34,631 nt of DNA from Thiotrichaceae bacterium (GTDB lineage: Bacteria; Pseudomonadota; Gammaproteobacteria; Thiotrichales; Thiotrichaceae), in assembly GCA_026988095.1 (NCBI GenBank), contig JALSLX010000144.1:1-34631 (forward strand), read 5' to 3'. The position numbers and the translations under genes were made by a program. The notes below the pieces were generated by a model, which had not been told where the DNA came from, searched no databases, and saw nothing but the letters and a program-made list of their open reading frames with translations. This document shows positions 1-31,753 of the stretch, one piece after another. The first letter of the stretch is position 1; each line of letters begins with the position of its first letter.

Positions 1-150
1 CCCCCCCTCTTTTTCGACGTTTTGTATGTAAATTACGGTCTTCCCAGCATGTTTTTAGCGAAAACCTCGTGGATTACAGAGAAATACCCATAAAATATGC
101 CTTAAAATGATGTTTTAAAAATACAAAACGTCGAAAAAGAGGGGGGGTGG
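1..150. repeat. C-tract palindromic repeat family 1, copy A (full, long 93-nt spacer; left end cut by window edge)
   Basis: Left arm 1-27 CCCCCCCTCTTTTTCGACGTTTTGTAT is the exact reverse complement of 121-147; right arm continues GTGG to 150. Confidence 0.9.
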
Positions 151-287
151 CAAATAAAATAAGCAATATTGAGGAGTTTTAATCTCTAAAACCAAGCTTT
201 CTTTATCTTATGAGCCTTGCTGTGCTTCGACTTCATCCTGTAACCGTGTTTTAATACCTGACTTTAAAAAACTACTCTTTTTAAACC

Positions 288-1088
288 ATGAACAATCAAG
301 AACTTTTAAATTATCTCCCTAAAAATGACTTATTAAAAGACCGTGTAATCCTTGTTACAGGTGCAGGTTCGGGGATTGGGCGTGCAATCTCGTTGGCGTA
401 CGCACGTTTTGGTGCAACCGTGGTTTTATTGGGTAAAACGCTTAAAGAATTAGAATATGTTTATGATGAGATTGAAAAGGCGGGCTATCCTGAGCCAGCA
501 ATCTACCCCTTAAATATGGAAGGCGCGACGGCAAAAGATTATCAAGATATGGCAAATACCTTTGCTGATAAATTAGGTGGGCTGGATGGCATTGCGCTGA
601 ATGCGGGTTGGTTTCCTGCGTTTATGCCGTTTAAAGAATACGATGTTGAAACGTGGTCTAAGACGTTGAGCGTAAACTTGCACGCTAATTTTTTGATCAC
701 GCAAACGTGTTTGCCTTTGCTTGAAGAATCAAAAGACCCTGCCATTATCTTCTCGGCACACGATTCGCTTAAAGCCTACAACGGCGCGTTTGGGATTGCT
801 AAAGCAGGCACACAGGCGATGATGGATATTTTGGCAGATGAGTATGATTTAGAAAATAATTTCATTCGCATCAATAGCATCGACACAGGGCCACTGCGCA
901 CACAAATGCGTAAAATGAATTATCCAGGTGAAGATATGGATACCCTGGCTTTGCCAGAATCTATCGTTGGTCCTTATTTATATTTTATGGGGGCAGATGC
1001 AGGTACGGATGCACAAACCAGTACAGCCAATAAAATAAAATTTGAGAAATTGTCGGCGGAGACTAAATGGGCTGGTGAGGCGAACTAG
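288..1088 (+). CDS. Short-chain dehydrogenase/reductase, YciK-like
   Basis: TGAGSGIG Rossmann motif, LNAGW motif, ADEYDLENNFIRINSIDTGPLRTQMR resembles YciK. Tyr of the YxxxK motif appears as Phe (GAFGIAK). Confidence 0.85.
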   Translation: MNNQELLNYLPKNDLLKDRVILVTGAGSGIGRAISLAYARFGATVVLLGKTLKELEYVYDEIEKAGYPEPAIYPLNMEGATAKDYQDMANTFADKLGGLDGIALNAGWFPAFMPFKEYDVETWSKTLSVNLHANFLITQTCLPLLEESKDPAIIFSAHDSLKAYNGAFGIAKAGTQAMMDILADEYDLENNFIRINSIDTGPLRTQMRKMNYPGEDMDTLALPESIVGPYLYFMGADAGTDAQTSTANKIKFEKLSAETKWAGEAN

Positions 1089-1090
1089 TT

Positions 1091-1795
1091 TTGTTATTAA
1101 AACAAACTCTTTTCACTATAATGTTAGCACTCTTATATGCTGTGCCTGTTATAGGAGATGAGAGAGTCGAGATTGAAAAATTGCCACCAGCAGGCGAGGG
1201 AATTGTTTTTCCTCATCATCTTTTAATGAAAGTTTCGGATAGAACTAATTTTTTTGAATACGATAATGAAAGCGAAGAACGCATTTTAAATTTTAATCAT
1301 TTAATCACAAAGGGTTTAAAAAGCATTCCCAATATTTTTTATGATCGTATTCCCACGATCACAATTTTAAAAACTGAAACGGTGTATTTCAAAAGCCAGA
1401 TAAAGAATGAATATTATTTTAGTCGTAAATGGATTGATAAGAATCATATTATATCGATCAGGGAATTTGAAAAAACAGGTTCAGAATCAGAATTAAGCAC
1501 TTATCTTGGCCCTTTATCAAAAATACCTACTGTATCCCACGGGCTTGCTACCTTTGATTTGAAATTTGAAGGGAGCGTGATGAGCTTTAAAAGTTATGTG
1601 AAAAAGAAGTTTTTTTCTTTAAGAAAACAATATTGGGCGTATTTAGATGTGTATTTGCCCCCTAAAAAAGTGGCAGATCAATTTAGAATGTTGATTCTTG
1701 TAGTGAGCGAACCGAACAATTTCTTAAAAGACAACGGCACTTATTTTCTAATACCGATTACTAAAGATGACAGAAAAAGATATTCTATTCAATAA
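1091..1795 (+). CDS. Exported hypothetical protein (TTG start; alternative ATG at 1121)
   Basis: ORF with N-terminal hydrophobic signal-like segment MLLKQTLFTIMLALLYAVPVIGDE; 3' end overlaps cmoA start by 29 nt. Confidence 0.6.
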   Translation: MLLKQTLFTIMLALLYAVPVIGDERVEIEKLPPAGEGIVFPHHLLMKVSDRTNFFEYDNESEERILNFNHLITKGLKSIPNIFYDRIPTITILKTETVYFKSQIKNEYYFSRKWIDKNHIISIREFEKTGSESELSTYLGPLSKIPTVSHGLATFDLKFEGSVMSFKSYVKKKFFSLRKQYWAYLDVYLPPKKVADQFRMLILVVSEPNNFLKDNGTYFLIPITKDDRKRYSIQ

Positions 1796-2501
1796 CCCTC
1801 AGCAGGTAGTCGATTTCGCGTTTGATGATGCGGTAGCGGATGTATTTCCTGACATGATTAGGCGTTCAGTGCCAGGTTATGAAACGGTGATTTCTTTGCT
1901 GGGCGTGCTTGCCGAGCAATACGCTCAGCCAAATACCAAGGTTTATGATTTGGGTTGTTCGTTGGGTGTGGCAACTTTATCGATGCATCGACAAACACGA
2001 ACGCTAGGCTTAAAACATATTTGTGTTGATAACTCAGAAGCGATGGTGAAGCGTTGCACATCAAGATTAAAACGACATATGCCTGATGCTGATTTAACCG
2101 TGCTTTGCGACAATATAGAAGATATTGAAATCAATAATGCATCGTTGGTGGTGGTAAATTTCACCTTGCAGTTTTTGGCTCCAGAAAGTCGTTTATCCTT
2201 GCTTAAAAATATATACAACGGTTTGTTGCCTAATGGGGCTTTGGTGTTGTCAGAAAAGTTAATCTTTGAAGATGATGCAGAAAACCAATCACAGATTAAG
2301 TGGCATCATGCTTTTAAAAGTGCCAACGGCTATAGTGATTTAGAGATTAGCCAAAAACGTGTGGCGATTGAAAATGTGATGATTCCTGATAGCGTAGAAA
2401 CACACCAGCTGCGGGTACAGCAAGCAGGTTTTAAAGAGTCGTATCAATGGTTTCAAGCGTTTAATTTTGCATCGCTAATTGCCATTAAAAGTAGCACTTA
2501 A
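1767..2501 (+). CDS. cmoA: Carboxy-S-adenosyl-L-methionine synthase CmoA
   Basis: DILFNNPQQVVDFAFDDAVADVFPDMIRRSVPGYE and VYDLGCSLG motifs; followed directly by cmoB. Confidence 0.95.
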   Translation: MTEKDILFNNPQQVVDFAFDDAVADVFPDMIRRSVPGYETVISLLGVLAEQYAQPNTKVYDLGCSLGVATLSMHRQTRTLGLKHICVDNSEAMVKRCTSRLKRHMPDADLTVLCDNIEDIEINNASLVVVNFTLQFLAPESRLSLLKNIYNGLLPNGALVLSEKLIFEDDAENQSQIKWHHAFKSANGYSDLEISQKRVAIENVMIPDSVETHQLRVQQAGFKESYQWFQAFNFASLIAIKSST

Positions 2502-2516
2502 TAAGTAAAATAAAAC

Positions 2517-3518
2517 ATGATTTTTGATTTTAATCCTTTGTACAAAGATTTAATTGCCAATGATTTTGCGGAGTGGCAAGAAACTTTGCCTGCACAGCTT
2601 GCAGAAACGCTAGAAAAAAGACCGCATGGCAAAACTGAAGAATGGCGAGATATATTATCAGCACTGCCAGAAGTCACCCCATCCCAAGTTGATATGTCAG
2701 CTGATAAATTACAAGTTGGTTTGGCTGATGATTGTCATGATGAAAATAAAACTCAGCTAAAAAATACACTCAAAAGATTACACCCGTGGCGCAAAGGTCC
2801 TTATGAATTGTTTGGTATCCATATTGATACAGAATGGCATTCTGATTGGAAGTGGCAACGTATTCAGCCGCATATTAGCCCACTAAAAAATCGCTCTGTA
2901 TTAGATGTTGGTTGTGGTAATGGCTATCATATGTGGCGCATGTTGGGTGAGGGCGCACGCTTGGTTATTGGTGCTGATCCAAGTCAATTTTTCATGGTGC
3001 AATTTGCCGCGATTAAAAAATATGTAAGCGCCTTAAATGGCGAGCAACCTATCCATATATTGCCGTTCAAAGGTGAAGAATTACCCGCATTCACGCACGA
3101 ATATAAAGGCAAGGGCTTTGATACGGTTTTTTCAATGGGTGTTTTATATCATCGCTTATCACCGATTGATCATTTAAAAGAGCTACGTAGCTTTATTCGA
3201 AAAGACGGTGAACTGGTTTTAGAAACATTAGTGATTGAGGGGGATGATTCGAACGTGCTTATTCCTGAAGATCGTTATGCAAAAATGCGCAATGTTTGGT
3301 TTATTCCCACTCCTGATTTATTGGTGCGAATGCTGGAACGAGCAGGTTTTAAAAATATTCGTGTGGTTGATACTAATCAGACAAGTACTGAAGAGCAACG
3401 TAGTACAAAGTGGATGGAGTTTGAATCGCTTGAGAATTTTCTTGACCCTGATGATCATAATAAAACTATTGAGGGTTATCCTGCGCCAAAACGTGCGGTG
3501 GTTATTGCAATTGCTTGA
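2517..3518 (+). CDS. cmoB: tRNA U34 carboxymethyltransferase CmoB
   Basis: RKGPYELFGIHIDTEWHSDWKWQR, VLDVGCGNGYHMWRMLGEGA, GVLYHRLSPIDHL motifs; adjacent to cmoA. Confidence 0.95.
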   Translation: MIFDFNPLYKDLIANDFAEWQETLPAQLAETLEKRPHGKTEEWRDILSALPEVTPSQVDMSADKLQVGLADDCHDENKTQLKNTLKRLHPWRKGPYELFGIHIDTEWHSDWKWQRIQPHISPLKNRSVLDVGCGNGYHMWRMLGEGARLVIGADPSQFFMVQFAAIKKYVSALNGEQPIHILPFKGEELPAFTHEYKGKGFDTVFSMGVLYHRLSPIDHLKELRSFIRKDGELVLETLVIEGDDSNVLIPEDRYAKMRNVWFIPTPDLLVRMLERAGFKNIRVVDTNQTSTEEQRSTKWMEFESLENFLDPDDHNKTIEGYPAPKRAVVIAIA

Positions 3519-3525
3519 TTTTTTT

Positions 3526-3668
3526 CCACGGAAGTACAAGAAAAGTTATTTTCTCTTCTTTCAAAAGAGATCGTTGATACAATAAAAGTTGGATACTTAG
3601 ATGGTTTATCCGTTTACTAGAGAACTCTTTTTTCTTTTCCGTGTCTTTCCGTGTGCTTCCGTGGCAAA
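3526..3668. repeat. Palindromic repeat family 2, copy 1 (CCACGGAAG... / ...CTTCCGTGG)
   Basis: CCACGGAAGTACAAGAAAAG at 3526 is inverted relative to CTTTTTTCTTTTCCGTGTCTTTCCGTGTGCTTCCGTGG ending 3664; same motif at 20549-20703. Confidence 0.75.
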
Positions 3669-3715
3669 AAATGTTAATGTTTGAAGTCCCCAAACCCAGA
3701 TCATATAGAGATTCC

Positions 3716-4492
3716 ATGACCAAGATTATTGCTATTGCCAATCAAAAAGGCGGTGTTGGTAAAACCACCACCAGCGTTAATCTAGCGACCTCTCTGGCAG
3801 TTATTAAACGTAAAGTATTAATAATAGATATGGACCCGCAAGGTAACGCCACAACGGGCGTTGGTTTAGATAAACATAATATGCCTGTGTTTTTAAGTGA
3901 TGTCTTATTGGGAGATGCTCAAGTTGAAGCAGCACTACAGCAAGTTCCCAATACGAATATAGAAGCTTTAGCCGGTGGGCCTGACCTCACTATCGCCGAA
4001 TTTCAAATGATGAAAATGGATGATCGTGAGTATTGTCTACGCAATGTGCTTAGCGGTATTAAAGATCGCTACGAGTATATTATTATCGACTGCCCACCAT
4101 CATTAAATATGCTGACCGTTAACGCTTTAGTGGCGGCAAGTGGTGTGTTGATCCCGATGCAGTGTGAATATTATGCGCTTGAGGGTTTATCGGCTCTGGT
4201 CGGCTCTATTGATACTATTCGTAAAAATGCAAACCCAAGTTTGGAGATTACAGGTGTTTTACGTACCATGTATGACCCACGCAATAACTTATCGCGTGAT
4301 GTTTCAAAGCAGCTTACAAAATATTACGAAGATAAGCTCTACAATACTTCAATCCCCCGAAATATACGTTTAGCTGAGGCACCAAGCCACGGTTTACCTG
4401 CACTGATGTATGATAAGCGTTCTAGCGGGGCGCTGGCATATTTGGCATTAGCGGCAGAAATGATAAGAAAAGAATCTCAAAAAGCGGCATAA
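3716..4492 (+). CDS. parA: Chromosome partitioning protein ParA (Soj)
   Basis: MTKIIAIANQKGGVGKTTTSVNLA (deviant Walker A), DMDPQGNATTG, IIDCPPSLNMLTVNAL. ATG at 3716 preferred over the ORF-track start at 3641, which lies inside repeat family 2. Confidence 0.95.
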   Translation: MTKIIAIANQKGGVGKTTTSVNLATSLAVIKRKVLIIDMDPQGNATTGVGLDKHNMPVFLSDVLLGDAQVEAALQQVPNTNIEALAGGPDLTIAEFQMMKMDDREYCLRNVLSGIKDRYEYIIIDCPPSLNMLTVNALVAASGVLIPMQCEYYALEGLSALVGSIDTIRKNANPSLEITGVLRTMYDPRNNLSRDVSKQLTKYYEDKLYNTSIPRNIRLAEAPSHGLPALMYDKRSSGALAYLALAAEMIRKESQKAA

Positions 4493-4502
4493 GGACAAAA
4501 AA

Positions 4503-5357
4503 ATGGTAAAGAAACCTGGATTAGGTCGTGGTTTGGACATGTTGTTAAGTTCAACAAACCGAGAAACCAACAAAGATACCGAACTAAAAAATCTACCCGT
4601 CGAAAAAATTAGCAAAGGTGAATATCAACCACGCTTGAGTATTGATCCCGATGCTTTACAAGAGTTGGCAGAATCAATTAAAGCACAGGGAGTTGTGCAA
4701 CCTGTTGTTGTGCGTCGTTTAGACACTGGGAGCTATGAGCTGATTGCAGGTGAGCGTCGTTGGCGAGCATCACAAATTGCAGGGCTACACACCATCCCCG
4801 CGATAGTACGTGATATTCCTGATCAAGCGGCAGCAGCAATGTCGTTGATTGAAAACATCCAACGCGAAGATCTAAATGCGCTAGAAGAAGCTATCGCCAT
4901 GAATCGCCTGATTAGTGATTTTGGGCTAACGCATCAACAAACGGCAGAATCAGTAGGGCGCTCGCGTACTGCAGTGAGTAACCTTTTACGGCTTTTAGAT
5001 CTAGAAGATGCCACAAAAGAGCTATTAGATACACGCAATATTGATATGGGGCACGCACGTGCTTTATTGGCATTAAGCGGTTCCTTACAAGTTGAAACTG
5101 CCAATAAAGTAGCTAAAGCTCAAATGTCAGTGCGTGAGACGGAGAAGCTAGTTAAAAGACTTCTATCATCTGACGACACGACGAAAAATAAAACACCTAT
5201 TAAGAAAGCCCTAGAAGTACAAAAGCTAGAAGAATCTTTATCACAAACACTCGGTGCTAATGTAAATATTCAATACAATACTAAGGGCAAGGGAAAGTTA
5301 GTCGTTGAGTATAATAATCTTGATGAACTAGATGGCATTTTAGATCATATAAAATAA
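4503..5357 (+). CDS. parB: Chromosome partitioning protein ParB
   Basis: KKPGLGRGLDMLL, GEYQPR, YELIAGERRWRAS, NIQREDLNALEEA motifs; 10 nt downstream of parA. Confidence 0.95.
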   Translation: MVKKPGLGRGLDMLLSSTNRETNKDTELKNLPVEKISKGEYQPRLSIDPDALQELAESIKAQGVVQPVVVRRLDTGSYELIAGERRWRASQIAGLHTIPAIVRDIPDQAAAAMSLIENIQREDLNALEEAIAMNRLISDFGLTHQQTAESVGRSRTAVSNLLRLLDLEDATKELLDTRNIDMGHARALLALSGSLQVETANKVAKAQMSVRETEKLVKRLLSSDDTTKNKTPIKKALEVQKLEESLSQTLGANVNIQYNTKGKGKLVVEYNNLDELDGILDHIK

Positions 5358-5372
5358 GTGGATTATTGAATA

Positions 5373-5831
5373 ATGGATGCAGAAATACGTTTTTTTATGA
5401 CCACCGGCGATGAGGTTAAATTCCTTGAGTTTGCTAGTAAACATATAGATACAATAGAAAAGGACAGTAGCAACAACAGTAACTCCTTAAAGCAACGCTT
5501 TATCATTGATGAATGTGAGCTTCTGTATACACCCACACAACTAGAAGATAACACAATGTATTCTGGTGTTTTAGAGATAAGAATACTGGCAGAAGATACT
5601 TGTAAAGGTCAACTTAGAGCCACAAGTATCTATAAAAAGCTAAGAAACTGGATAAAGAAAAAATACTGGAGTCGCTTAGCTTTCATCAATAAAAATAAAA
5701 AAGATAGGCTCATGCCATCGCGTATCCATTGGCTAGGACCTGAGGCTAAAAAATGGAAAGAAGAGGATTCTAAAAAGCATTTGTTAAAACTATCAAAAAC
5801 AAGTTGGATGGAATTTGATATTGGCTTTTGA
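5373..5831 (+). CDS. Hypothetical protein
   Basis: 152-aa ORF directly after parB; no family recognised. Confidence 0.5.
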   Translation: MDAEIRFFMTTGDEVKFLEFASKHIDTIEKDSSNNSNSLKQRFIIDECELLYTPTQLEDNTMYSGVLEIRILAEDTCKGQLRATSIYKKLRNWIKKKYWSRLAFINKNKKDRLMPSRIHWLGPEAKKWKEEDSKKHLLKLSKTSWMEFDIGF

Positions 5832-6071
5832 TTTTAGTAATGGCGAGCTACCCAATTGAGCACAAGAGAATGACTATATCGCCTCACTTCATGAAGAATA
5901 ACGACAAATTGTTTACGCTATAAGCTCTAATTGACTTAATTAAACTCTCTGGAGCGCTTCATAAAGGCTGATTTGAAATTGAAGCAGGTGAAAATATACG
6001 CTTAGCATAAGACATAATGCCAAAAAAACTTAAAAACAACCTAAATTAGATAAATATTGCTTAATTTCTAT

Positions 6072-6081
6072 GACCACCCCC
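6072..6081. repeat. Target-site duplication (left) of IS remnant: GACCACCCCC
   Basis: Identical 10-mer at 6965-6974 flanks the element. Confidence 0.75.
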
Positions 6082-6964
6082 AATGCCGTTGATTTAAGCT
6101 CCAAGTACCTGTTTCTCCGTTATTTGTTATATCCTTTACGGTTCTTTTGTCTCTTGCAGCGAACCTTTTTACGTTCAAAACTGCGACCAGGTTTAACAAT
6201 GGTTAGGTCATTGGCAATAAGCTTCAAATGTAAGTAGATTTCGTCAAGACGTAATTGTTGATTTAAAAAATCAACAATTATGCTTTTAAACTGGCTGATT
6301 GCAGCGGTAAAATTAATGATGTAATCAAAACTCCGTGACTTTACCTTTTTGTTGATTAAGGGCTTACTGGCAAAGCACTCGAGTGCAATAAGTTTCTGAA
6401 TCAAGACACTCGCATGAACATCTTGCTTGATACTGTGAACGGTTCTACCGCTAAAATATTCACAGAGTTCAGGTATATCAGGCAACGTAAAGTCACTACC
6501 AGCAACAGCTAAAATACGATATCCATGCCAGCTTGAGCGTAAGGATTGTAGTACATGAGCTTGAAAGAAATGAACGGTGTCTTGGAGCAACTGAATAAAA
6601 GCAGTCTCTTTTAGTTTGGCTCTCGCTCTTGTAAACGCACTGGATGAGAGTAACTGCTTACGAGAGGATGATGGTGCTTTTTTACGGAAATAGTCGCTGA
6701 GTTCAGCTTTAATAGAGCGACGGTTTTGATTGAGGAAAATTTCAATCAAGATGGGGGAAGTTAACTGATTTTTCCGTGTAAAATCGGCACTTGAAACACG
6801 GTATTTGCTGATAAAGTCAGTGCTATTATAGGCGTCGCTTATAAGGACATGAGTATTATTAAATGAAGTTTGAATAATTCATTGTTACATTTTTCTCTTT
6901 TCAGTTCACATGGGAAAGATGATAATATGAAAATCAATAACTTAAGGCTTAAATCAATGGCATT
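6082..6964 (-). mobile_element. Internally deleted IS4-family insertion element (883 bp)
   Basis: Terminal inverted repeats AATGCCGTTGATTTAAGCTCCAAGT (6082-6106) and ACTTAAGGCTTAAATCAATGGCATT (6940-6964) match at 21/25; 10-bp direct flanking repeat; encodes a truncated transposase. Confidence 0.85.
6120..6749 (-). pseudogene. IS4-family transposase with internal in-frame deletion (N- and C-terminal parts fused)
   Basis: LAVAGSDFTLPDIPELCEYF (first catalytic Asp region) is joined directly to FSGRTVHSIKQDVHASVLIQKL, a C-terminal motif; region with the remaining DDE residues is absent. PGRSFERKKVRCKRQ tail typical of IS4-type transposases. Confidence 0.8.
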
Positions 6965-7000
6965 GACCACCCCCCCCTTTTTTCGACGATTTGTATGTAT
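6965..7000 (+). repeat. C-tract repeat family 1, copy B (solo left arm; contains right TSD of the IS)
   Basis: GACCACCCCCCCCTTTTTTCGACGATTTGTATGTAT; no matching right arm downstream before the 7031 CDS. Confidence 0.85.
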
Positions 7001-7030
7001 AAATAGCTTTTTATCTTGGGCTGTTAAGCT

Positions 7031-7828
7031 ATGAACCTATATGAAGAGGCTTATAAATGCTTAATGGAGTCCAATATTTCAAAAAAAAGAATCGGTGTCG
7101 ATAGGCTCTATGAACATTGGCAAAGAAAGGCACTAAATCGTGACGATTTTAATCTTGAAAAAATAGAAATCCCGGGTAGACCTGAAAAACCAGAGCTTAT
7201 CCCACCCGCACAATTAAAAAGGCGCAAGCTAGGCTCTGAATTAGGTCGTGCAACACTGATTCATGCTATTGCGCACATTGAGTTTAATGCAATAAACCTA
7301 GCTTTGGATGCAGTTTACCGCTTTCGTGATATGCCTGATGATTATTATGCTGATTGGCTCAAAGTTGCCTCTGAAGAGGCCTATCACTTCTCATTGCTGA
7401 ATGAACGCTTAGAAAACATGGGTTATCACTACGGAGATTTTCCTGCTCACAATGGATTGTGGGAAATGGTCCTAAAAACAGGTCATGATGTCATGATACG
7501 AATGGCATTAGTGCCACGTGTGCTTGAGGCGAGAGGTTTAGATGTAACTCCAGGCATGATGGAGCGCCTAGCAACCGCTGGCGATAGTGAGACAGTGGAT
7601 ATTCTAAAAATAATACTACGAGATGAAATAGGGCATGTAGCTATAGGCTCTTATTGGTTTAAATATTGTTGTAAATTGCGTGATTTAAACCCTGAAGAAA
7701 CATTTAGAAACTTATTAAATGAATTCATGGGTGGGACTTTACGTGGACCTTTTTATATGGAAGGTAGATTGCAGGCAGGTTTTACGCAAAAGGAAATGGA
7801 TGATTTGGTTGCTATGATGCCAACTTAG
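7031..7828 (+). CDS. DUF455 family (ferritin-like) protein
   Basis: IPGRPEKPELIPP, HIEFNAINLALDAVYRFRDMPDDYYADWLKVASEEAYHFSLL, ILRDEIGHVAIGSYWF: ExxH-type di-iron-like motifs characteristic of DUF455. Confidence 0.85.
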   Translation: MNLYEEAYKCLMESNISKKRIGVDRLYEHWQRKALNRDDFNLEKIEIPGRPEKPELIPPAQLKRRKLGSELGRATLIHAIAHIEFNAINLALDAVYRFRDMPDDYYADWLKVASEEAYHFSLLNERLENMGYHYGDFPAHNGLWEMVLKTGHDVMIRMALVPRVLEARGLDVTPGMMERLATAGDSETVDILKIILRDEIGHVAIGSYWFKYCCKLRDLNPEETFRNLLNEFMGGTLRGPFYMEGRLQAGFTQKEMDDLVAMMPT

Positions 7829-7964
7829 TAAGGTCTAGTTTAGCCCCCATTCATCGAAAAAACTAAGCCTGCAATAAATCCAGAAGAAAAAAGACTCATA
7901 ATAAGGTAGAATACGGACAGCTTGTTTTTGGGGAACGAGCAAAAAACATCAGAGAATAAATAGT

Positions 7965-10865: not shown

Positions 10866-10868
10866 GAA

Positions 10869-16793: not shown

Positions 16794-16863
16794 CCACCTC
16801 CCCCCTTTTTCGATGATTTGTATGTAAAACCACGTACAAATCATCGAAAAAGGGGGGAGGTGG
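16794..16863. repeat. C-tract palindromic repeat family 1, copy C (full, 29-bp perfect arms, 12-nt loop)
   Basis: CCACCTCCCCCCTTTTTCGATGATTTGTA (16794-16822) exactly inverted at 16835-16863. Confidence 0.95.
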
Positions 16864-18027: not shown

Positions 18028-18104
18028 TATACCACCTCCCCCTTTTTTTGATGATTTGTATGCGAAATCATGTACAAATCATCGAAAAACAGGGGGGTGG
18101 TATA
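18028..18104. repeat. C-tract palindromic repeat family 1, copy D (full, imperfect arms, 12-nt loop)
   Basis: Left CCACCTCCCCCTTTTTTTGATGATTTGTA (18032-18060), right TACAAATCATCGAAAAACAGGGGGGTGG (18073-18100), flanked by TATA on both sides. Confidence 0.9.
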
Positions 18105-20536: not shown

Positions 20537-20543
20537 AAGACTT

Positions 20544-20707
20544 TTTTGCCACGGAAGCACACGGAAAAAAAGAACTAAACTAAATCGTCATTCTGGCGGA
20601 TGCCAGAATCTATGTTCAACCGAGAGTCAGTTGTTTGAGATAGATACTGGCATCCGCCAGTATGACAATCTCGTGTTGATTCTCTTTTTCGTGTTTTCCG
20701 TGGCAAA
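20544..20707. repeat. Palindromic repeat family 2, copy 2, enclosing a nested REP-like inverted doublet
   Basis: Outer arms CCACGGAAGCACACGGAAAAAAAG (20549-20572) / CTTTTTCGTGTTTTCCGTGG (20684-20703); inner GTCATTCTGGCGGATGCCAGAATC (20587-20610) versus GATACTGGCATCCGCCAGTATGAC (20643-20666), each itself a hairpin. Confidence 0.85.
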
Positions 20708-23367: not shown

Positions 23368-23402
23368 TTCAGTTTTTCAAGTGTAAATAAGCGTATTATG
23401 AA

Positions 23403-23434
23403 GACCACCCCCCCTGTTTTTCGCTGTTTTGTAT
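23403..23434 (+). repeat. C-tract repeat family 1, copy E (solo left arm) between iscA and hscB
   Basis: GACCACCCCCCCTGTTTTTCGCTGTTTTGTAT; no inverted partner before hscB at 23459. Confidence 0.85.
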
Positions 23435-23458
23435 TCCCAAATGTTGGATAAATCCTAG

Positions 23459-23998: not shown

Positions 23999-24016
23999 GT
24001 TTCGTAGAATATATAA

Positions 24017-25885
24017 ATGGCATTATTTCAAATATCAGAACCTGGTCAATCAGCACCTCTCGGTGAGCAAGAGAAGTTTCTCGCCGCAGGCATTGATTTG
24101 GGCACAACAAATTCACTCGTAGCAACCGTACGTGATAGTGGTACAGCAGAGACTGTGGCAGACGAGCAGGGTAATTCACTTTTGCCCTCCGTCGTGCGCT
24201 ATTTTGAGGATGGTACGACAGAAATTGGCACTACTGCCATAAACGCTCAGCTCGATAATATTGGAAACACAATATCATCAGCAAAGCGTTTGCTTGGTCG
24301 TGCAGTAGAAGACATTAAAACACTCGGTGGCTCATTGCCGTATAAGTTTGCCAATAATGATTCGAGTGTTCCACAAATGGTAACAGTTGCAGGCAATGTA
24401 ACGGCAATCGAGGTTTCGGCAGAAATTCTTAAAACACTAAAAAATCGTGTTGAAGATGAATTGGATGGCCCCTTAAAAGGCGTTGTAATTACCGTCCCAG
24501 CTTATTTTGATGATGCCCAGCGTCAAGCAACCAAAGATGCAGCAAGATTGGCAGATTTAAACGTATTTCGTTTGCTTAATGAGCCAACAGCGGCGGCAGT
24601 TGCTTATGGTTTAGATCATAAAGAAGAATTGGATGAAAGGATCATTGCCGTCTACGACTTAGGGGGTGGAACCTTTGATATTTCTATTCTCAAATTAAAC
24701 AAAGGCGTCTTTGAAGTCATGGCAACGGGTGGTGATTCGGCACTGGGTGGCGATGATTTTGATCATGCGATTGCAGAATGGATGCTGCAAGAATCTGGCA
24801 GTGATTTACATCACCATGCGATCAGTGAAGCGCGACGAGTAAAAGAAGCCTTAAGTGATAGTGAGGAGGTCAACGTAGAGTTGGCAGATTGGCAAGGCAC
24901 GATTACACGAGCACAATTTGATGAAATGGTCGCGCCATTAGTGAAAAAAACACTCTTAGCGTGTCGTCGTGCATTGCGAGATGCTGATCTAAGTAAAGAA
25001 CAAGTGCACGATGTAGTGATGGTGGGTGGCTCAACCCGTATGCCCATTATTCGTCAGAGCGTCGGTGAGTTTTTCAATAAACCACCATTGGTTGATATTG
25101 ATCCAGACAAGGTAGTCGCCATAGGTGCTGCATTACAAGCGGATGTTTTAGCAGGTAATAAGCCCGACGAAGAAATGCTATTGCTGGATGTGATTCCATT
25201 ATCATTAGGCCTTGAAACCTACGGTGGGTTGGTCGAAAAAGTGATTGCTCGTAATACCACGATTCCTATCACGCGCGCTCAAGAATTCACAACCTTTAAA
25301 GATGATCAAACCGCGATGACGGTGCACATATTACAAGGTGAGCGTGAAACAGTTGAAGAGAATCGCTCATTGGCAAAGTTTGCCTTAAAAGGTATTCCGC
25401 CCATGGTGGCAGGTGCAGCACGAATAAAAGTAACTTTTCAGGTGGATGCTGATGGCTTGCTTAATGTGGAAGCCGAAGAAGAAACAACCGGTGCAAAATC
25501 AAATATTGAAGTGAAACCATCCTATGGTTTAAGTGATAACGAAATCGAAGGCATGATTAAAGATTCGATGGATAATGCTCAAGCTGATATGGAAGCACGT
25601 CGTTTACGCGAACAAAAAGTAGAAGCTGATAGAACCTTAGAAGCCCTAGATTCAGCGATGAAGTCAGATGCAGACACAATGCTCAATGATGATGAAATCA
25701 AAATATTGTTAGAAGCGCGTGAAAACTTACAAAACATCAAAGATAACAGCGAAGATTCTGCCGAAGTTAAATCGGCCATAAAAAACATGGAAAAAGTAGC
25801 TGAATTTTACGTCGCACGCCGAATGGACGACAATGTGAAAACAGCTATGCAAGGTCAGAGTGTTTCTGATTTTGCCGATAGATAA
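24017..25885 (+). CDS. hscA: Fe-S protein assembly chaperone HscA
   Basis: [44 protein letters not shown] Hsp70 motifs; isc operon. Confidence 0.98.
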
Positions 25886-25900
25886 AAGAGATTAAACGTT

Positions 25901-26239
25901 ATGCCGAAGATTATATTTTTACCCCACGAAGAACTTTGCCCAGATGGTGCGATGTTTGAAGCCGAAACGGGGATGACACTGTGTGATGCAGGCTTAGCCA
26001 ATCATATCGATATCGAACATGCCTGTGAAAAGTCGTGTGCCTGTACAACTTGTCACATTTATGTACGTGAAGGCTTTGATTCGCTAGAAGAAGCAACAGA
26101 CCTAGAAGAAGATTACTTGGATAAAGCGTGGGGCGTTGACCCCGACTCACGTCTGAGTTGTCAGGCAAAAGTGGGTACGGAAGATTTAGTGTTAGAAATG
26201 CCGAAGTACACGATCAATATGGTCTCAGAAAACCATTAG
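25901..26239 (+). CDS. fdx: [2Fe-2S] ferredoxin, ISC type
   Basis: ACEKSCACTTCHIYVREGFDSLEEATDLEEDYLDKAWGVDPDSRLSCQAKVG. Confidence 0.97.
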   Translation: MPKIIFLPHEELCPDGAMFEAETGMTLCDAGLANHIDIEHACEKSCACTTCHIYVREGFDSLEEATDLEEDYLDKAWGVDPDSRLSCQAKVGTEDLVLEMPKYTINMVSENH

Positions 26240-26246
26240 CCATTCC

Positions 26247-26368
26247 TGAGCAATGCACTTTTGCCCGTCTGCGGCGTTGCTTTGCGACTTCCGCTACTCA
26301 TGTACTCATCGTACACTCCGTTGCGGCTTCTCAAGCGCCTTGCATACGAACAAAATCACATTACTCAG
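26247..26368. repeat. Palindromic intergenic repeat (family 3) between fdx and iscX
   Basis: TGAGCAATGCACTTTTGCCCGTCTGC at 26247 is imperfectly inverted relative to GCATACGAACAAAATCACATTACTCA ending 26367; inner GCGACTTCCGC / GTTGCGGCTTC region also inverted. Confidence 0.75.
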
Positions 26369-26399
26369 AAACGACTAAAAATTAGTTAAGGATTTTACA

Positions 26400-26600
26400 A
26401 TGAAATACAAATGGACAGACACCCTAGACCTAGCCATCGAGCTAGATGAAGCACATCCTGATGTTGATCCGCAGTATGTGCGTTTCACTGACTTGCATTC
26501 TTGGGTATGCGCGCTTGAAAGCTTTGAAGATGACCCTGAAAAATCAAATGAGAAAATATTAGAATCAATTCAAATGAACTGGATTGAAGAAAAAGACTAG
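26400..26600 (+). CDS. iscX: Fe-S assembly protein IscX
   Basis: KWTDTLDLAIELDEAHPDVDPQYVRFTDLHSWV...IQMNWIEEKD. Confidence 0.96.
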   Translation: MKYKWTDTLDLAIELDEAHPDVDPQYVRFTDLHSWVCALESFEDDPEKSNEKILESIQMNWIEEKD

Positions 26601-26639
26601 AAAAAGAGACACTGTGGTTGGGTATGGTGGGCTAAGAAA

Positions 26640-26825
26640 ATGCTTCACAAAATAAAAATATTATTCATTCGCTTGGTGACGGTATGCATCGTCTTTTATG
26701 TGTTATGGGTGGTCGTTAATAAAGTCTCCCCAGCAATTAATCCGCCAAAAACCAGTCAGAAATCTATTGAGCGTGATTATCGTGGGGCAATTCAGATTGA
26801 TATGAAGCAGGAAACATTTAAGTAA
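26640..26825 (+). CDS. Small single-TM hypothetical protein
   Basis: 61-aa ORF with hydrophobic segment IRLVTVCIVFYVLWVVVN, immediately after iscX. Confidence 0.45.
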   Translation: MLHKIKILFIRLVTVCIVFYVLWVVVNKVSPAINPPKTSQKSIERDYRGAIQIDMKQETFK

Positions 26826-26836
26826 GATATATCCAT

Positions 26837-27388
26837 TCAGCTATAAAATATTATATTATGAAATTCTACTGGAATCGACTCGCTCATATTTCGATAGCCA
26901 TGTGGCTGGTCAGCAGAAAATCGTAAAACCTCTCTTTTTGATAACTTTTTCCACTCTCCTTTGAGTTTAACTTCTAGCTCCCCAGATATAACCAAAACAT
27001 GCTCAAAAACGCCTTTATCATGCGCTTCAGATAGATGAGTTTGCAATGGCTCTAGCTTGATTGTAAACATTTCAAATCCGAAGCGTGGATCAAATGGGAA
27101 AAGAATTTTTGCTTTTAGATCATGTTTCTGTGTATTGAATTCTTTCGCTTTTTTCTGCACATTTTCATCGCTATCTTCTACTAATAAACCATCTACAAAT
27201 AGTGATAAGGGTTTATGAAATCCCGTTGCAATCTTCCAAAGTGTTGAAATTGTTGGGCTAGATTCATTACGCTCAATTTGACCTAACATGGCTTTACTAA
27301 CGCCTGTTTCTTCTGCAGCTTTGCTTAAACTCCAGCCAGCCGTATTACGAATTTTTTTTAACTGATGCCCAATTTCATATTTGATCAT
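26837..27388 (-). CDS. XRE-family transcriptional regulator with C-terminal cupin domain (YdcN/SutR-like)
   Basis: HTH LKKIRNTAGWSLSKAAEETGVSKAMLGQIERNESSPTISTLWKIA; cupin-like EHVLVISGELEVKLKGEWKKLSKREVLRFSADQPHGYRN; divergent from benE. ATG at 27388 preferred to the 27433 start. Confidence 0.88.
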   Translation of the reverse strand: MIKYEIGHQLKKIRNTAGWSLSKAAEETGVSKAMLGQIERNESSPTISTLWKIATGFHKPLSLFVDGLLVEDSDENVQKKAKEFNTQKHDLKAKILFPFDPRFGFEMFTIKLEPLQTHLSEAHDKGVFEHVLVISGELEVKLKGEWKKLSKREVLRFSADQPHGYRNMSESIPVEFHNIIFYS

Positions 27389-27413
27389 AAGTTTACCGAG
27401 GTTTAAATAAGTC

Positions 27414-27465
27414 TTGTGCAGTATAGCGTACAATATTATGATGTTTGAGCGTTATAACGCACAAA
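27414..27465 (+). promoter_or_regulatory. Putative benE promoter with palindromic operator
   Basis: -35 TTGTGC (27414-27419), 17-bp spacer, -10 TATGAT (27437-27442), followed by TTTGAGCGTTATAACGCACAAA (27444-27465; perfect GCGTTATAACGC core). Confidence 0.6.
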
Positions 27466-27484
27466 CCATTAAAGAGTAATTTTT

Positions 27485-28639
27485 ATGAAAATATTAAAGC
27501 TTAGTCATATTAGCTCAGGTTTTATAGCAGTCTTAATCGGTTACAGTAGTTCTGTTGCAATAATTTTTCAGGCTGCAACTGCCGCAGGGGCAGGGCAAGA
27601 GGTAATTAATTCTTGGCTACTAGCATTGGGTTTGGGGATGGGTTTATCCAGTATCGGTCTTTCTTTATATTTCAAATCTCCTATATTAACAGCGTGGTCA
27701 ACACCTGGTGCTGCAATGTTAGCTACAGCATTAGTTAATGTTCCAATGAGTGAAGCTGTTGGTGCATTCTTGTTAAGTGGGTTATTGATTACATTGAGCG
27801 GGTTAAGCGGAAGCTTTGAACGTTTAAGTAAGATTATCCCTCCTGCAATTGCTGCAGCAATGCTGGCTGGTGTGTTGCTTCCCTTTTGTTTAGAAATATT
27901 TACGAATTTACAGCAGGAGTTTGTACTGGTTGCATCGATGTGTGTTGCCTACTTAATAGGAAAACGATATTTTTCGATTTATGCAATTCCTCTAGTGTTA
28001 CTGGTTGGCGTGTTGCTCTCATGGAAATTAGGATTATTTGAATCGGAAACAATTGATTTAAGACTAGAGAATTTTGTTTATACAGACCCTAGTTTTTCTA
28101 TCACTTCATTGATTAGTATTGCTATTCCACTATTCATAGTCACAATGACATCACAGAATATGCCTGGAATCGCTGTCATGAAAACAGCCGGTTTTAAACC
28201 TCCCTTATCTCCTATCATTACGACCACTGGAATAACTACAATTTTGCTTGCGCCGTTTGGAGGGTTCGCGTTTAACCTAGCTGCAATTACAGCAGCCATC
28301 TGTATGGAAGAGGATGCTGATAAAAACCGTAAGACACGTTACTTGGCCGCAGTGAGTGCAGGGATATTCTATCTATTGGCCGCACTTTTTGGAGCAACAA
28401 TTGTTGCATTGTTTTCAATCAGCCCTAAAGCTTTAGTATTGTCTTTAGCTGGACTCGCGTTGTTAGGTACATTGGGTAATTGTTTATCTCAGTCTTTAGA
28501 GAAGCCTCAACACCGGGAAGCAGCTTTAATTACGTTTCTTGTTGCTAGTTCGGGGGTGGTTTTTTTAGGAATAGGGGCAGCATTTTGGGGATTAGTTTCT
28601 GGATTGTTTGTTCAGCTAGTAATGAATAGGCGTTGCTAA
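27485..28639 (+). CDS. BenE family benzoate/H+ symporter-like transporter (YdcO-like)
   Basis: Multi-TM protein with TAWSTPGAAMLATAL, TMTSQNMPGIAVMKTAGFKPP, APFGGFAFNLAAITAAICM motifs. Confidence 0.9.
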   Translation: MKILKLSHISSGFIAVLIGYSSSVAIIFQAATAAGAGQEVINSWLLALGLGMGLSSIGLSLYFKSPILTAWSTPGAAMLATALVNVPMSEAVGAFLLSGLLITLSGLSGSFERLSKIIPPAIAAAMLAGVLLPFCLEIFTNLQQEFVLVASMCVAYLIGKRYFSIYAIPLVLLVGVLLSWKLGLFESETIDLRLENFVYTDPSFSITSLISIAIPLFIVTMTSQNMPGIAVMKTAGFKPPLSPIITTTGITTILLAPFGGFAFNLAAITAAICMEEDADKNRKTRYLAAVSAGIFYLLAALFGATIVALFSISPKALVLSLAGLALLGTLGNCLSQSLEKPQHREAALITFLVASSGVVFLGIGAAFWGLVSGLFVQLVMNRRC

Positions 28640-28650
28640 TATTATAGATA

Positions 28651-28675
28651 TGTAAAATGTCGAAAAATAGGGGAA
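28651..28675 (-). repeat. Degenerate C-tract repeat family 1, copy F (solo right arm)
   Basis: TGTAAAATGTCGAAAAATAGGGGAA resembles the right-arm consensus TACAAAACGTCGAAAAA(G/C)AGGGGGG. Confidence 0.55.
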
Positions 28676-28738
28676 GCAGCTGTTATTTGTTCAAACTATG
28701 TAGCTAAGCTTGATTTAAGGGGCTGGAAGTATCATCTC

Positions 28739-30157
28739 TTATTTAAGAATAAGCATGTTTTTGGAACGGTCAAACTCTAAAATACACTCTTCTAAATTAC
28801 TAAAATCCATTGAATACATGTAATGCGTTCCATTAATTTCGAAGTATCTGGTTAATTCATATTTAATCCTATAAATAATATATCCACTGTCATCAGCTTC
28901 GACTAAGGAATTCACAGGCGTTTTCCATTCTTCAAGACGCTTTTTAATATTAAATTTCGCGCTTGGTTTTTTTAGTATATTGAAAGTTCCGTTAGCTTTA
29001 TCAGAATCACGAACATATTCTCTATAGTTGCTATCTTGTATCTGATATTGAAGCAGATCTTTATCTTGGTTGTCGAAGGTTAGACTATCACTCAACGTCA
29101 TTGAATATATACCCGGGCTTTTCTTTTTTAAGAATTTATAATGACTAGGTAAAGTAAAACTCAAGTTATTATCAATTGTCACTACTTGATCGTTCAGGGT
29201 ATTACGAGGTGTTCTTGTTCTTATGGATTCTATTTCAGCAGTCCAATGTTCGTTAAACTTTTCATTTGCGAGTAGTTTCTCATCTGTTATCGACAGCTCA
29301 CTGAGCTTCCCTTCCAATGACTCTTTGAACTTCAGTTTTTTCTTTAATTCATTAATAGAACTTTCATGAAAATCTAAGCCTTTTCTCGGATGCTTATACT
29401 CTTGACCATCTGTAGTCGTTATCTTTATTACGGTCACTTTAACATCTAAATCTAAACCGGATAGGTCAGTTATTGGATAGGATGCTTTTTTCAGCTTTGC
29501 TGTTAACTCTCTGCTTAAGTCCATTAAATAGGCTAAAGAATGCCTATGAATATAATAATCATCGCTACTCACTATTGTGCCTTTACCGTTATAAGAAGTA
29601 ACCTGCTTCTTTTGGGTAATTGAATTAACCTCAACTTTAAAATGAGTTTTACCCACTAGATCGGTATTTCCAGTATTAGTAAGAGTAATTTGAAGTTTTG
29701 GGCTATCCTTTGAACCTTCTGCATGGATAACCATAATATCGCTTATTTTTATTATTTTTAGCTTGTCTATTAGTTTAGAAGCCTCTATTTTTTCTTTTTG
29801 TAATTGTGCTATTTCATCTTTTAATTGCTCTACCTCTGTTTCATTCTCATTTTTTAAATAACCTTCCGCAATTTGGATAACATCACTGTAGTTCTTATTA
29901 TCCATTGTCTCGAGTAGTATTTGATTAATAGATTTCTTGTTACTTTTTTTTCTGTCCTGCCACTTTTCTTGCATGGCCCTCATCGCTAAAACTCTCATTG
30001 CTTTTTCTAGATCATTTTTTTCAGATTCATTTAATTTACGGATTATTAAGTCTTTTGAGATTTTGAATGCCTCTTCTGATGATCCTGAGAATGTGTCACC
30101 ACAGCCTGATAAGAAAAATACCAAAGATAAAGTGATGGTGGTTATTAAGAATTTCAT
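28739..30157 (-). CDS. Lipoprotein of unknown function, coiled-coil containing
   Basis: Lipobox VFFLSGCGD; EVEQLKDEIAQLQKEKIEASKLIDKLK coiled-coil; no confident family. Confidence 0.65.
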   Translation of the reverse strand: MKFLITTITLSLVFFLSGCGDTFSGSSEEAFKISKDLIIRKLNESEKNDLEKAMRVLAMRAMQEKWQDRKKSNKKSINQILLETMDNKNYSDVIQIAEGYLKNENETEVEQLKDEIAQLQKEKIEASKLIDKLKIIKISDIMVIHAEGSKDSPKLQITLTNTGNTDLVGKTHFKVEVNSITQKKQVTSYNGKGTIVSSDDYYIHRHSLAYLMDLSRELTAKLKKASYPITDLSGLDLDVKVTVIKITTTDGQEYKHPRKGLDFHESSINELKKKLKFKESLEGKLSELSITDEKLLANEKFNEHWTAEIESIRTRTPRNTLNDQVVTIDNNLSFTLPSHYKFLKKKSPGIYSMTLSDSLTFDNQDKDLLQYQIQDSNYREYVRDSDKANGTFNILKKPSAKFNIKKRLEEWKTPVNSLVEADDSGYIIYRIKYELTRYFEINGTHYMYSMDFSNLEECILEFDRSKNMLILK

Positions 30158-30170
30158 TTTCTTTCCTGAT

Positions 30171-30647
30171 TTAGTGTTTCAATTTCAGTTTAAACCCTTC
30201 ATGTGATGCGCTAAACCCTAATTTCTCATAAAACCTAATGGCATCGGGGCGTTTTTTATCTGAAGTTAATTGAATTATGGCGCAGTTTTTCTCTTTAGCA
30301 CGGTTTATTGCCCATTGAAAAAACTCTGTGCCTAAACCTAAACCTCGATAATCTTTATGGATACGCACACCTTCAACCAAGCATCTCCATGAACCGATAT
30401 GTGTGAGGTATGGGATGAACGTTAGTTGTAGCATACCTACGATAATAGGTTTAGTTTGATCTTGTTCCACTACAATCAGTTCATTATTTGGATCTATTGT
30501 TATCTGTTCAAAGCTTTGTCGATAGGCCATATTTAATGGGCTACTAGTATATTCTCTTTGTTGCCCGAGTTCATCGTCTGCGAGTAGGTTTACAAGTAGT
30601 TTAAGGTCAGCTACTTTTGCTTTGCGGAATGATAATTTCAATGGCAA
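30171..30647 (-). CDS. GNAT family N-acetyltransferase
   Basis: CLVEGVRIHKDYRGLGLGTEFFQWAINRAKEKNCAIIQLTSDKKRPDAIRFYEKLGF. Confidence 0.9.
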   Translation of the reverse strand: MPLKLSFRKAKVADLKLLVNLLADDELGQQREYTSSPLNMAYRQSFEQITIDPNNELIVVEQDQTKPIIVGMLQLTFIPYLTHIGSWRCLVEGVRIHKDYRGLGLGTEFFQWAINRAKEKNCAIIQLTSDKKRPDAIRFYEKLGFSASHEGFKLKLKH

Positions 30648-30675
30648 CCTTCTGTTCTTTTTCGTTCAATACAGT

Positions 30676-31605
30676 TTATTTTAGGATGAATTTCACAACA
30701 GCTTCAACCACTTTTTTATTCATCAAAATCTTACGATGTCCAAAGCCAGAGGTAATCATTGTTTGAGCATGGGGTGTTGCATCGTGCAACAGTTTACCTT
30801 GCTCATAAGGGACTTCATGGTCTTTTTCATCGTGGATTAAAAGTAGATCTCCCTTAACACTCTTTATAGTTTGTAAGGGCGAAATATCATCCCAAGTCCA
30901 TGAGATGCCGTAAGTATCTGTAAATTTTTCACGAGCAACGTGCCTCATGGCATCAAGTGTGGATTTTCTCAACTCAAAAACTTCGCCGAATAAATTAGTA
31001 ATCCAAATAACACTGGGAAATGAAGAAACTAAAATCACTTTTTTAGCATTCACATTTAATCTATCAATCCCCAAAAGTACTGTGCCTGTACCAAAAGAGT
31101 GTCCAATAATGGCTTCAAAGGGTTCATCTTCTTGATTTTTTTTATGGCTGTTTACTGCTTTATAAACCTCAGAAATCACTAAAGCAACATCCATCATATT
31201 TGTACGTTTTCCCTCAGAATCTCCATGTCCAGGCACATCAAAGCCAACTACTCGATAGCCAGCATCAACCAAAGGTTTGATAAAAGCATGAAACTGCGTA
31301 CAACGCCCGCCCCAACCGTGAGAAAGTAACACAATAGGTGCATCATCTTCACCCCATGAACGTACTGATATTTTGCGGTCTCGTACAGTGATAAAGGTAA
31401 GCTTTGAAGATTCGCGTAGTGCTTGTTCTTTACGAGGCGTTTTAAAACGCGTTGGCGTCATAAACAATCGCAAGGCAAGTTTGCCAGCTAACTTGGGTGA
31501 AATAACGCCCAAAACCTTAAACAGAAAAGTAGTACTGAAGAAGAATAAGCGCATTGAGAAAGGCATACGGTGGTTTTTGAACGGGTGATCAGATTTTTTA
31601 GTCAT
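30676..31605 (-). CDS. Alpha/beta hydrolase
   Basis: VLLSHGWGGRCTQFHAFIKPL oxyanion region, IGHSFGTGTVLLG nucleophile elbow (GHSFG), HDEKDHEVPYEQG, GHRKI. Confidence 0.88.
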   Translation of the reverse strand: MTKKSDHPFKNHRMPFSMRLFFFSTTFLFKVLGVISPKLAGKLALRLFMTPTRFKTPRKEQALRESSKLTFITVRDRKISVRSWGEDDAPIVLLSHGWGGRCTQFHAFIKPLVDAGYRVVGFDVPGHGDSEGKRTNMMDVALVISEVYKAVNSHKKNQEDEPFEAIIGHSFGTGTVLLGIDRLNVNAKKVILVSSFPSVIWITNLFGEVFELRKSTLDAMRHVAREKFTDTYGISWTWDDISPLQTIKSVKGDLLLIHDEKDHEVPYEQGKLLHDATPHAQTMITSGFGHRKILMNKKVVEAVVKFILK

Positions 31606-31683
31606 GATAGAAATCAGCAGGTATTGGACACATATACTAGTCTAATTCTATTCATGTTCATGAACATATTTTAATTATTTACA

Positions 31684-31753
31684 TCCATCCCCCCCTTTTT
31701 TCGACGTTTTGTATTAGTTAGTTTACAAATCGTCGAAAAAAAGGGGGGTGGGG
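31684..31753. repeat. C-tract palindromic repeat family 1, copy G (full, 10-nt loop)
   Basis: CCATCCCCCCCTTTTTTCGACGTTTTGTA (31685-31113 region start to 31113) opposite TACAAATCGTCGAAAAAAAGGGGGGTGGGG (31124-31153 region): read from the sequence as left arm 31685-31713 and right arm 31724-31753. Confidence 0.9.

Follow-up and report, generated by a model that had tools for sequence, protein, structure and literature searches.

Species-specific spellings of an evenly spaced, putative C-tract DNA signal kept at fixed gene positions across most members of one Thiotrichaceae genus

DNA uptake signals of the DUS type are thought to originate mainly via substitution. In the literature cited here, uptake signals are described only from the Neisseriaceae (DUS) and the Pasteurellaceae (USS) (PMC3630211, PMC7811141, PMC12616744, PMC1939737). 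DUS dialects are mutually exclusive, and both inverted pairs and DUS within genes are known (PMC3630211); USS are flanked by A/T tracts (PMC7811141), and for uptake signals even spacing and a share of 35-65% of DUS/USS copies in genes have been reported (PMC1939737). Here, we analyzed a stretch of 34,631 nucleotides from a Thiotrichaceae bacterium (contig JALSLX010000144.1, the window), in which an earlier note had claimed seven copies of a dispersed intergenic repeat. A repeat search and a position-weight scan, the latter with 0 matches at 10 bits in the reversed genome, confirmed six of them, i.e., four tail-to-tail inverted repeats and two single arms, with arm scores of 39-55 bits, and all six lay between genes, as claimed; the seventh scored at background level and was dropped (Table 1). 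One of the arms reported as plain solo is a genuine arm, but an IS-like element has been inserted into it, and 8 bp of target sequence, ACCACCCC, are duplicated on its two sides (6073-6080 and 6966-6973); the ORF of this element (6120-6749, minus strand) had no Pfam match. A recurrent arm-side flank, TTAATTCAACGGCATTG, was rejected as part of the family, and corresponds to the end of an IS/MITE inserting into arms.

Table 1. Positions of the arms and associated features in the window.
Feature	Position	Strand	Details
Tail-to-tail arm pair	1..150		core-to-core spacer 95 nt; 46.4 and 54.9 bits; very start of contig
IS-like element, 885 bp, inserted into arm	6081..6965		terminal repeats CAATGCCGTTGAWTTAAG
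Arm, right part of IS-interrupted arm	6966..6995	+	upstream of DUF455 gene; 52.6 bits
Tail-to-tail arm pair	16794..16863		core spacer 12 nt; repeat search and position-weight scan
Tail-to-tail arm pair	18032..18101		core spacer 12 nt; repeat search and position-weight scan
Solo arm in iscA-hscB spacer	23405..23433	+	position-weight scan; same place and orientation in 7 other species
Claimed arm, not a family member	28651..28675	-	4 bits, at background level
Tail-to-tail arm pair	31685..31752		core spacer 10 nt; repeat search and position-weight scan

The repeat unit is a single, non-palindromic arm of ~30 bp, with the form CCACCCCCCC-TN-TTTTTCGATGATTTGTA, and not the palindrome; inspection of the arm consensus revealed neither an internal dyad nor a GTAG/CGTC tag, and it forms no hairpin by itself. 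The arm unit is not an RNA, and an Rfam scan of the window found no matching family, in line with the initial impression that no named family was recognizable. The family extended well beyond the window, and was dispersed and mostly intergenic as anticipated: 351 arm cores were found in the 2.26-Mb source genome, G000, by pattern search with up to 3 mismatches, and the reversed control pattern gave 0. The search of the whole genome and its relatives thus returned hundreds of copies, and these matched no named repeat. Arm statistics came from 74% of G000, where 327 arms were counted, and relatives were sampled by short loci. The arms formed 222 elements: 117 stood alone, 83 elements were tail-to-tail pairs, and 22 were head-to-head pairs. 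The density of the family was 0.15-0.26 per kb. Same-strand pairs less than 700 bp apart were never seen among the 327 arms, and the position-weight scan found decayed copies to be very rare. Inside called ORFs we found 18 solo arms, about 8% of the elements; genes with such copies encode RecB/RecD-like proteins, PolB, RsmD-like and APH-like proteins. Inverted pairs preferred convergent gene ends and avoided divergent regions, and tail-to-tail pairs make long hairpins, as expected if the arms terminated transcription in both directions through RNA hairpins. This explanation is highly improbable, and the earlier note was right to set it aside, because solo arms, 117 of the 327, favored neither strand with respect to genes (++27/--29); moreover, arms lie midway in conserved genes, no U-tract follows them, and the helical phasing described below would be meaningless for RNA.

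To compare spellings, we used 12 genomes of the same genus, G000 and its congeners G001 to G011. Eight congeners also carried the C-tract core, spelled in other ways that largely exclude one another; the genus has at least four spellings, and copies by pattern ranged from 25 to 755 per arm-bearing genome. With at most one mismatch, the pattern CCAYCCCCCCNNTTTTT was found 358 times in G000, 755 in G002, and 733 in G010, and the pattern ACACCCCCCNACTTTTT 747 times in G011, 668 in G004, 472 in G007, 326 in G009, 109 in G008, and 25 in G003; the latter pattern occurred merely 0-5 times in G000, G002, G010, G001, G005, and G006. Reversed control patterns gave 0-3 matches per genus genome, and in 37 genomes from other genera the arm pattern counts were at background. 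Three congeners were without the family: G006, plus G001 and G005 once contamination was set aside. The copies in the latter two were rejected as remnants of the G000 dialect, being probably misbinned, because the contigs that carry them (for every G005 copy tested and for at least two of those in G001) share 92-100% identity with G000 or a near relative, compared with about 77-79% identity for the true core genes of both genomes. Matches labelled Methylomonas and Hyphomicrobiales are probably misbinned contigs as well: L044 shared 93% identity with contig C158 of G000, and L043 matched G000 over 249 bp only, which cover the arm and the IS/MITE flank beside it.

Arm positions persisted across species although their spelling differed, and this positional conservation rests on three sites studied in depth. 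All 8 of the arm-bearing species tested (G000, G002, G003, G004, G007, G008, G010, and G011) had an arm in the iscA-hscB spacer, always in one orientation, on the sense strand. An arm also lay upstream of the DUF455 gene in the same eight species, with the exceptions that the G007 arm was degenerate, the G010 arm lay at a distance of 217 bp, and the G000 arm was on the opposite strand. Finally, mnmH held an arm at the same codons in five species (G000, G004, G007, G009, and G011), where the loop before the arm has diverged, yet AAAAGTGGGGGG(G)TG, or in G000 its counterpart, was kept.

These sites bear on the proposal of a REP/MITE-type mobile family made in the earlier note, that is, a REPIN/BIME- or MITE-like element mobilized by a transposase acting in trans. 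Like REP/BIME/REPIN elements with RAYT, the arms occur singly and as inverted pairs whose spacers vary in length, lie between genes, and number in the hundreds (PMC3733652, PMC3116915). Also in its favor, ten pairs contain a conserved cassette of 85-144 nt, two pairs (C28:21710 and 22730) share an identical 22-nt spacer within unrelated flanks, and arms of one pair share their haplotype above chance (34/83 vs. 7.9%). Against it, orthologous sites bear different spellings, the single arm is not a hairpin, decayed copies are very few, and a masked-flank search of G000 revealed no empty paralogous site. The spacers of nearly all G000 pairs were unrelated, the cassette class of about ten being the exception, and outside this class the hallmarks of MITEs (fixed internal sequence, target duplications, and empty sites) were lacking. 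The suggested search for a RAYT/TnpA-REP gene detected just two pieces of Y1 transposase in G000, both truncated, and no intact RAYT; Y1 was absent from G004, G007, G009, and G011 despite their hundreds of arms, G001 had three Y1 and no family, and there was no correlation within the genus. The Y1 piece on contig C139 lies ~100 bp from an arm, which was taken as coincidence. Mobility is therefore improbable, and explanations by transposition, RAYT, or terminators are all disfavored; of the 'recent or maintained amplification' first suggested, maintenance was upheld and recent amplification was not.

The elements were also regularly arranged. Gaps between G000 elements averaged 6.8 kb with a CV of 0.47, against 0.86 ± 0.07 in 500 simulations of random intergenic placement, and only 5.6% of the gaps were under 2 kb, compared with 26.7% in the simulations. 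Pair spacers were helically phased, with a best period of 10.5 bp: tail-to-tail modes were 12, 22, 33-34, and 54 (R = 0.84, n = 75), and head-to-head modes 39, 50, 60, and 81 (R = 0.87, n = 21). Around solo arms, those inside genes included, the A+T content oscillated with a period of ~10.5 bp, with R = 0.69 in the outer flank and R = 0.55 in the tail flank against 0.10 by chance (n = 110), and this phasing reached 70 bp or more from the arm, stronger and longer on one side. Such data would suit arms that serve as chromosomal wrapping sites for DNA gyrase or for a nucleoid or chromosome-structuring protein, which every ~7 kb would relieve supercoils or anchor loops, with paired arms on the same DNA face. 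In E. coli, the gyrase motif extends over 130 bp, and GC content is periodic on either flank (PMC6379681); gyrase acting downstream of transcription fits the gene-end preference of the pairs. We consider this explanation plausible but below even odds: for so conserved an enzyme as gyrase, hundreds of mutually exclusive spellings among congeners are unexpected, its motif is symmetrical whereas arm phasing, present on both sides, is stronger and longer on one, phasing was weak in the other dialects (pooled R = 0.19 vs. chance 0.12, in small samples), and some congeners have no arm sites. Less likely than not, in our view, the arms are landmark sites of a new class that bend DNA at regular intervals over the whole chromosome, neither classical uptake signals nor gyrase sites, whose putative sequence-specific reader would have changed specificity several times in the genus while the sites stayed put.

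The reading we prefer, with a probability of about 0.45, is that the arm may be a genus-wide chromosomal signal sequence that acts as DNA uptake signals do. The type IV pilus/competence machinery would have a surface DNA receptor with a preference for DNA bearing the arm spelling of its own species, and biased uptake followed by recombination would maintain hundreds of arms across the chromosome. We infer that a protein reads the arm and that this reader would be the competence receptor, and likewise that DNA bending at the arm matters and that drive maintains the arms. G000 encodes type IV pilins, a GspH-type pilin, a PilB-like ATPase, and a ComM-like protein; a GspH/FimT-like minor pilin is encoded at C80:14494-15084. 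ComEC was present in 11 of the 12 genomes and was uninformative as a marker; since arm-less genomes have it too, it does not track the family. If the arm is an uptake signal, this genus would add a third lineage, unrelated to the other two, in which no fewer than four spellings occupy the same sites, and hence an independent test of the origin of such signals and of specificity change at hundreds of sites together. Should the reader be a wrapping protein, the arms would instead be a regularly spaced system of chromosome-organizing sites, and under both readings the 10.5-bp phasing and the dialects yield concrete, testable predictions.

When compared with known systems, gyrase sites and BIME-2 share with the arms a base composition that varies with a period of ~10.5 bp over ~130 bp about a center, and location at 3' ends (PMC6379681), whereas the arm has a highly specific 30-bp center with dialects, asymmetrical flanks, and periodicity that weakens in other dialects. 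From REP/BIME/REPIN, the family is set apart by the lack of an arm hairpin and of an intact RAYT, and by orthologous sites with altered spelling. With DUS it shares copy numbers in the hundreds, dialects that take each other's place from species to species, occurrence both within and between genes, and intergenic inverted pairs (PMC3630211); however, DUS have up to about 13 nt, no A/T flanks, about 2000 copies per genome, and lie far oftener in genes. The large coding-sequence share expected of DUS/USS is not seen in G000. In the APH-like gene, the arm falls at an insertion of 22 residues, unlike the mainly substitutional origin presumed for DUS. With USS it shares a G-rich core beside A/T tracts, even spacing, and dialects (PMC7811141, PMC12616744, PMC1939737), and a short resemblance, AAAGTG-G-run-T-tract: the ACAC-dialect strand AAAAAGTGGGGGGGTGTC-TTTTT is similar to the extended Hin-USS AAAGTGCGGTCAATTTT (PMC12616744), a likeness short enough that it may be coincidence. 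In the arm, a C7/G7 tract replaces GCGGT, A/T phasing is two-sided, and the bacterial family is another. Length, mostly intergenic placement, and phased flanks, as well as density, thus depart from DUS/USS, while the vertical retention of sites, the dialects, the regularity of the gaps, the copies within genes, and the inverted pairs appear to fit DUS/USS best. Collectively, most members of one genus carry a short C-tract DNA signal in hundreds of evenly spaced copies of species-specific spelling, and its arms, which appear to stay at fixed gene positions instead of hopping like transposons, most resemble the tags by which some bacteria recognize and import their own DNA.

Arm cores were searched in the window's own genome (G000), a single MAG of 2.26 Mb, 167 contigs and 92% completeness. 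At ≤3 mismatches, 351 cores were found and the reversed pattern gave 0, so the family is more than the few copies of the window. Six of the seven window copies claimed by the earlier note were present as described; that at 28651 was dropped, with 4 bits on a weight-matrix scale where true arms mostly exceed 40 bits and the reversed genome yields nothing at 10 bits. For arm statistics, 1.67 Mb (74% of the genome) was assembled, and it contained 327 arms with the consensus C-C-A-C-C7 / T-N / TTTTT-CG-AT-G-A-TTTGTA. The repeat unit is the single arm; 117 were solo, 166 lay in tail-to-tail pairs and 44 in head-to-head pairs, and in most pairs the spacer sequences were unrelated from pair to pair. 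No same-strand neighbours less than 700 bp apart were found among these 327 arms. About 10 pairs enclosed a conserved cassette of 85-144 nt with several hairpins (CGCCTAGGCGTTAAACGGCAAGC...GGTTGAAGCATCG), fragments of which also adjoined arms in two relatives, G004 and G001. Arms are also the target of an IS/MITE family (terminal repeat CAATGCCGTTGAATTAAGC) that inserts into their C-tract; most of the 17 ends found adjoined the C/G tract of an arm.

Coordinates of arms and associated repeats (C, contigs of G000; L, loci from relatives or public records)
Feature	Location	Remarks
Arm, iscA-hscB spacer	window 23405	sense strand
Arm upstream of DUF455	window 6966	interrupted by IS-like element
IS-like element, CAATGCCGTTGAATTAAGC family	window 6081-6965	ACCACCCC duplicated on both sides; ORF without Pfam match
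Further CAATGCCGTTGAATTAAGC copies	C65:14598-14793; C113:28355-28550; others	
Cassette pairs	C16:661; C102:2395; C19:17425; C69:3888 and 15954; C58:4930; C113:40565; C25:15167; C118:5649; C35:19524	
Cassette, further loci	L226; L254; L256	beyond the G000 contig list
Second palindromic repeat TTTTTTGCCACGGAAGCACACGGAAA	window 3518-3672 and 20542-20705	exact inverted copies 17 kb apart; copy at 20542 encloses another 62-nt inverted repeat with GTCATTCTGGCGGATGCCAGAAT
Dispersed repeat, ~140 bp	C13:8891-9028 and >20 other places in G000	copies 85-92% identical
Solo arm, G000 spelling	L285:162-182	on viral contig IMGVR_UViG_3300028417_000001 (38.7 kb), which carries one solo arm

The exact G000 spelling was almost restricted to that genome. 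With looser core patterns, differently spelled members of the family were found across the genus, the relatives being sampled by pattern searches and some sixty short loci. The spelling CCATCCCCCC-TN-TTTTTTATATATTT had 755 copies in G002 and 733 in G010; GACACCCCCCNACTTTTTGATGATTT had 668 in G004, 326 in G009 and 747 in G011; GTACACCCCCCNACTTTTTT had 472 in G007; and a TCACCCCCCTACTTNTA-like form was counted 109 times in G008 and 25 times in G003 with a pattern not designed for them. In G002, many arms (L198, L265, pattern hits) had a same-strand neighbour at a distance of 100-180 bp, and arms also had a minisatellite-like CTGTCCTCTGTCC repeat nearby; both may reflect insertions into arms with duplication. 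The core-pattern search gave only background level in other genera, no family in G006, and a dozen or fewer copies each in G001 and G005. Most of the copies tested in the latter two were on contigs that matched G000 or a close relative at 92-100% identity, whereas their core genes were ~77-79% identical to G000, and for this reason they are probably binning contamination. Some MAGs include foreign contigs, and those matching G000 at 92-100% were C44 and C121 of G001, C6, C16 and C24 of G005, and L044; L043 matched at 89% over 249 bp only, at an arm and IS/MITE flank. Such G000-like contigs in public MAGs labelled as other bacteria or species suggest misbinning. The family name Thiotrichaceae is tentative, since contigs such as L046, a G005 contig published as 'Thiotrichaceae bacterium' and 98% identical to contig C11 of G000, can be misbinned. 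By HscB identity G005 and G001 were nearest to G000, and by MnmH identity G007 was nearer than G001. As G005 and G001 lack the family and are closest by HscB, the simplest history from these comparisons would be that the ancestor of the genus had it and that it was lost later.

Arm positions were kept despite changed spelling. A sense-strand arm stood in the iscA-hscB spacer of each of the eight arm-bearing species tested; G001, G005 and G006 had none there. The same eight species carried the arm upstream of DUF455, degenerate in G007, 217 bp off in G010 and on the opposite strand in G000. Within mnmH, an in-frame arm stood at the identical codon position in five species, each with its own spelling, after a loop of otherwise diverged sequence; this loop was short in arm-less species, and short and without arm in G003 and G008, where the family is present. 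These three sites were picked from G000 arms and thus measure retention, not a genome-wide rate; the reversed-pattern control gave ~0.04 chance matches per 260-bp stretch. Two more G000 sites were matched in G010 and G004, and two relative arm sites had no counterpart. The REP/MITE-type mobility proposed by the earlier note is disfavoured by these data, because independent insertions in eight species would not strike the same spacers, each in its own spelling, and no RAYT tracking the family across genomes was found. An ancestral insertion whose motif was kept while its surroundings diverged would instead imply a motif selected or driven.

Placement in G000 was analyzed against 1523 genes from an ORF caller of our own. 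Of the convergent gaps 18% held a tail-to-tail pair, against 9% of the co-directional gaps and 6% of the divergent gaps; head-to-head pairs followed the same trend, and no strand preference of solo arms relative to these genes was found. Eighteen solo arms lay within called ORFs, several in frame in conserved genes (MnmH-like, RsmD-like, RecD-like, RecB-like, PolB, 5-oxoprolinase-like, APH-like, PhnH and FGGY kinase, several of these names being taken from a motif and the best-matching family). The elements follow one another at regular distances: over 124 gaps the mean was 6.8 kb, the mode 5-7 kb and the CV 0.47, with no gap >16 kb. Intergenic positions drawn at random from these contigs gave a CV of 0.86 ± 0.07, and a value as low as the one observed arose in 0 of 500 simulations.

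Spacer lengths clustered at 10-13, 20-23, 33-34 and 54 in tail-to-tail pairs, and at 37-40, 48-51, 60 and 81 in head-to-head pairs. The Rayleigh R at 10.5 bp was 0.84 (n = 75) and 0.87 (n = 21), respectively, and the best period was 10.5-10.55 (scan 4 to 20, lengths under 100); long tail-to-tail spacers of 103-144, including the cassette class, fell outside this rule. The A+T content flanking solo arms oscillated with the same ~10.5-bp period to about -70 and +60. Phase coherence was 0.69 for the C-tract flank, where the periodic power was twice that of random intergenic DNA, and 0.55 for the opposite flank, against 0.10 by chance. In-gene arms were phased too. We read this wave as curved or bent DNA round the arm, and one and the same rule may underlie the helical phasing of pairs. 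In line with the earlier note, which found the family less like a terminator than like a REP/MITE-type element, a terminator is improbable: solo arms, arms inside genes and phased copies do not suit a role in ending transcripts.

Two readings remain. That the arm is a site wrapped by gyrase or a nucleoid protein is the less likely one: gyrase is needed at convergent gene ends, and the wave resembles the gyrase motif, which spans 130 bp (PMC6379681), but it is asymmetrical and, in small samples, weak in other dialects, and this reading does not easily explain why there are dialects or why some lineages lost the arm. We favour a DNA uptake signal, at a probability of about 45%. A new copy close to an existing one would gain little from biased uptake, which could create even spacing. 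The arm shares several traits with the DUS/USS known from Neisseriaceae and Pasteurellaceae: dialects, a regular distribution, pairs in inverted orientation, copies at permissive codons of genes, and lineages that have lost the signal (PMC3630211, PMC7811141, PMC12616744, PMC1939737).
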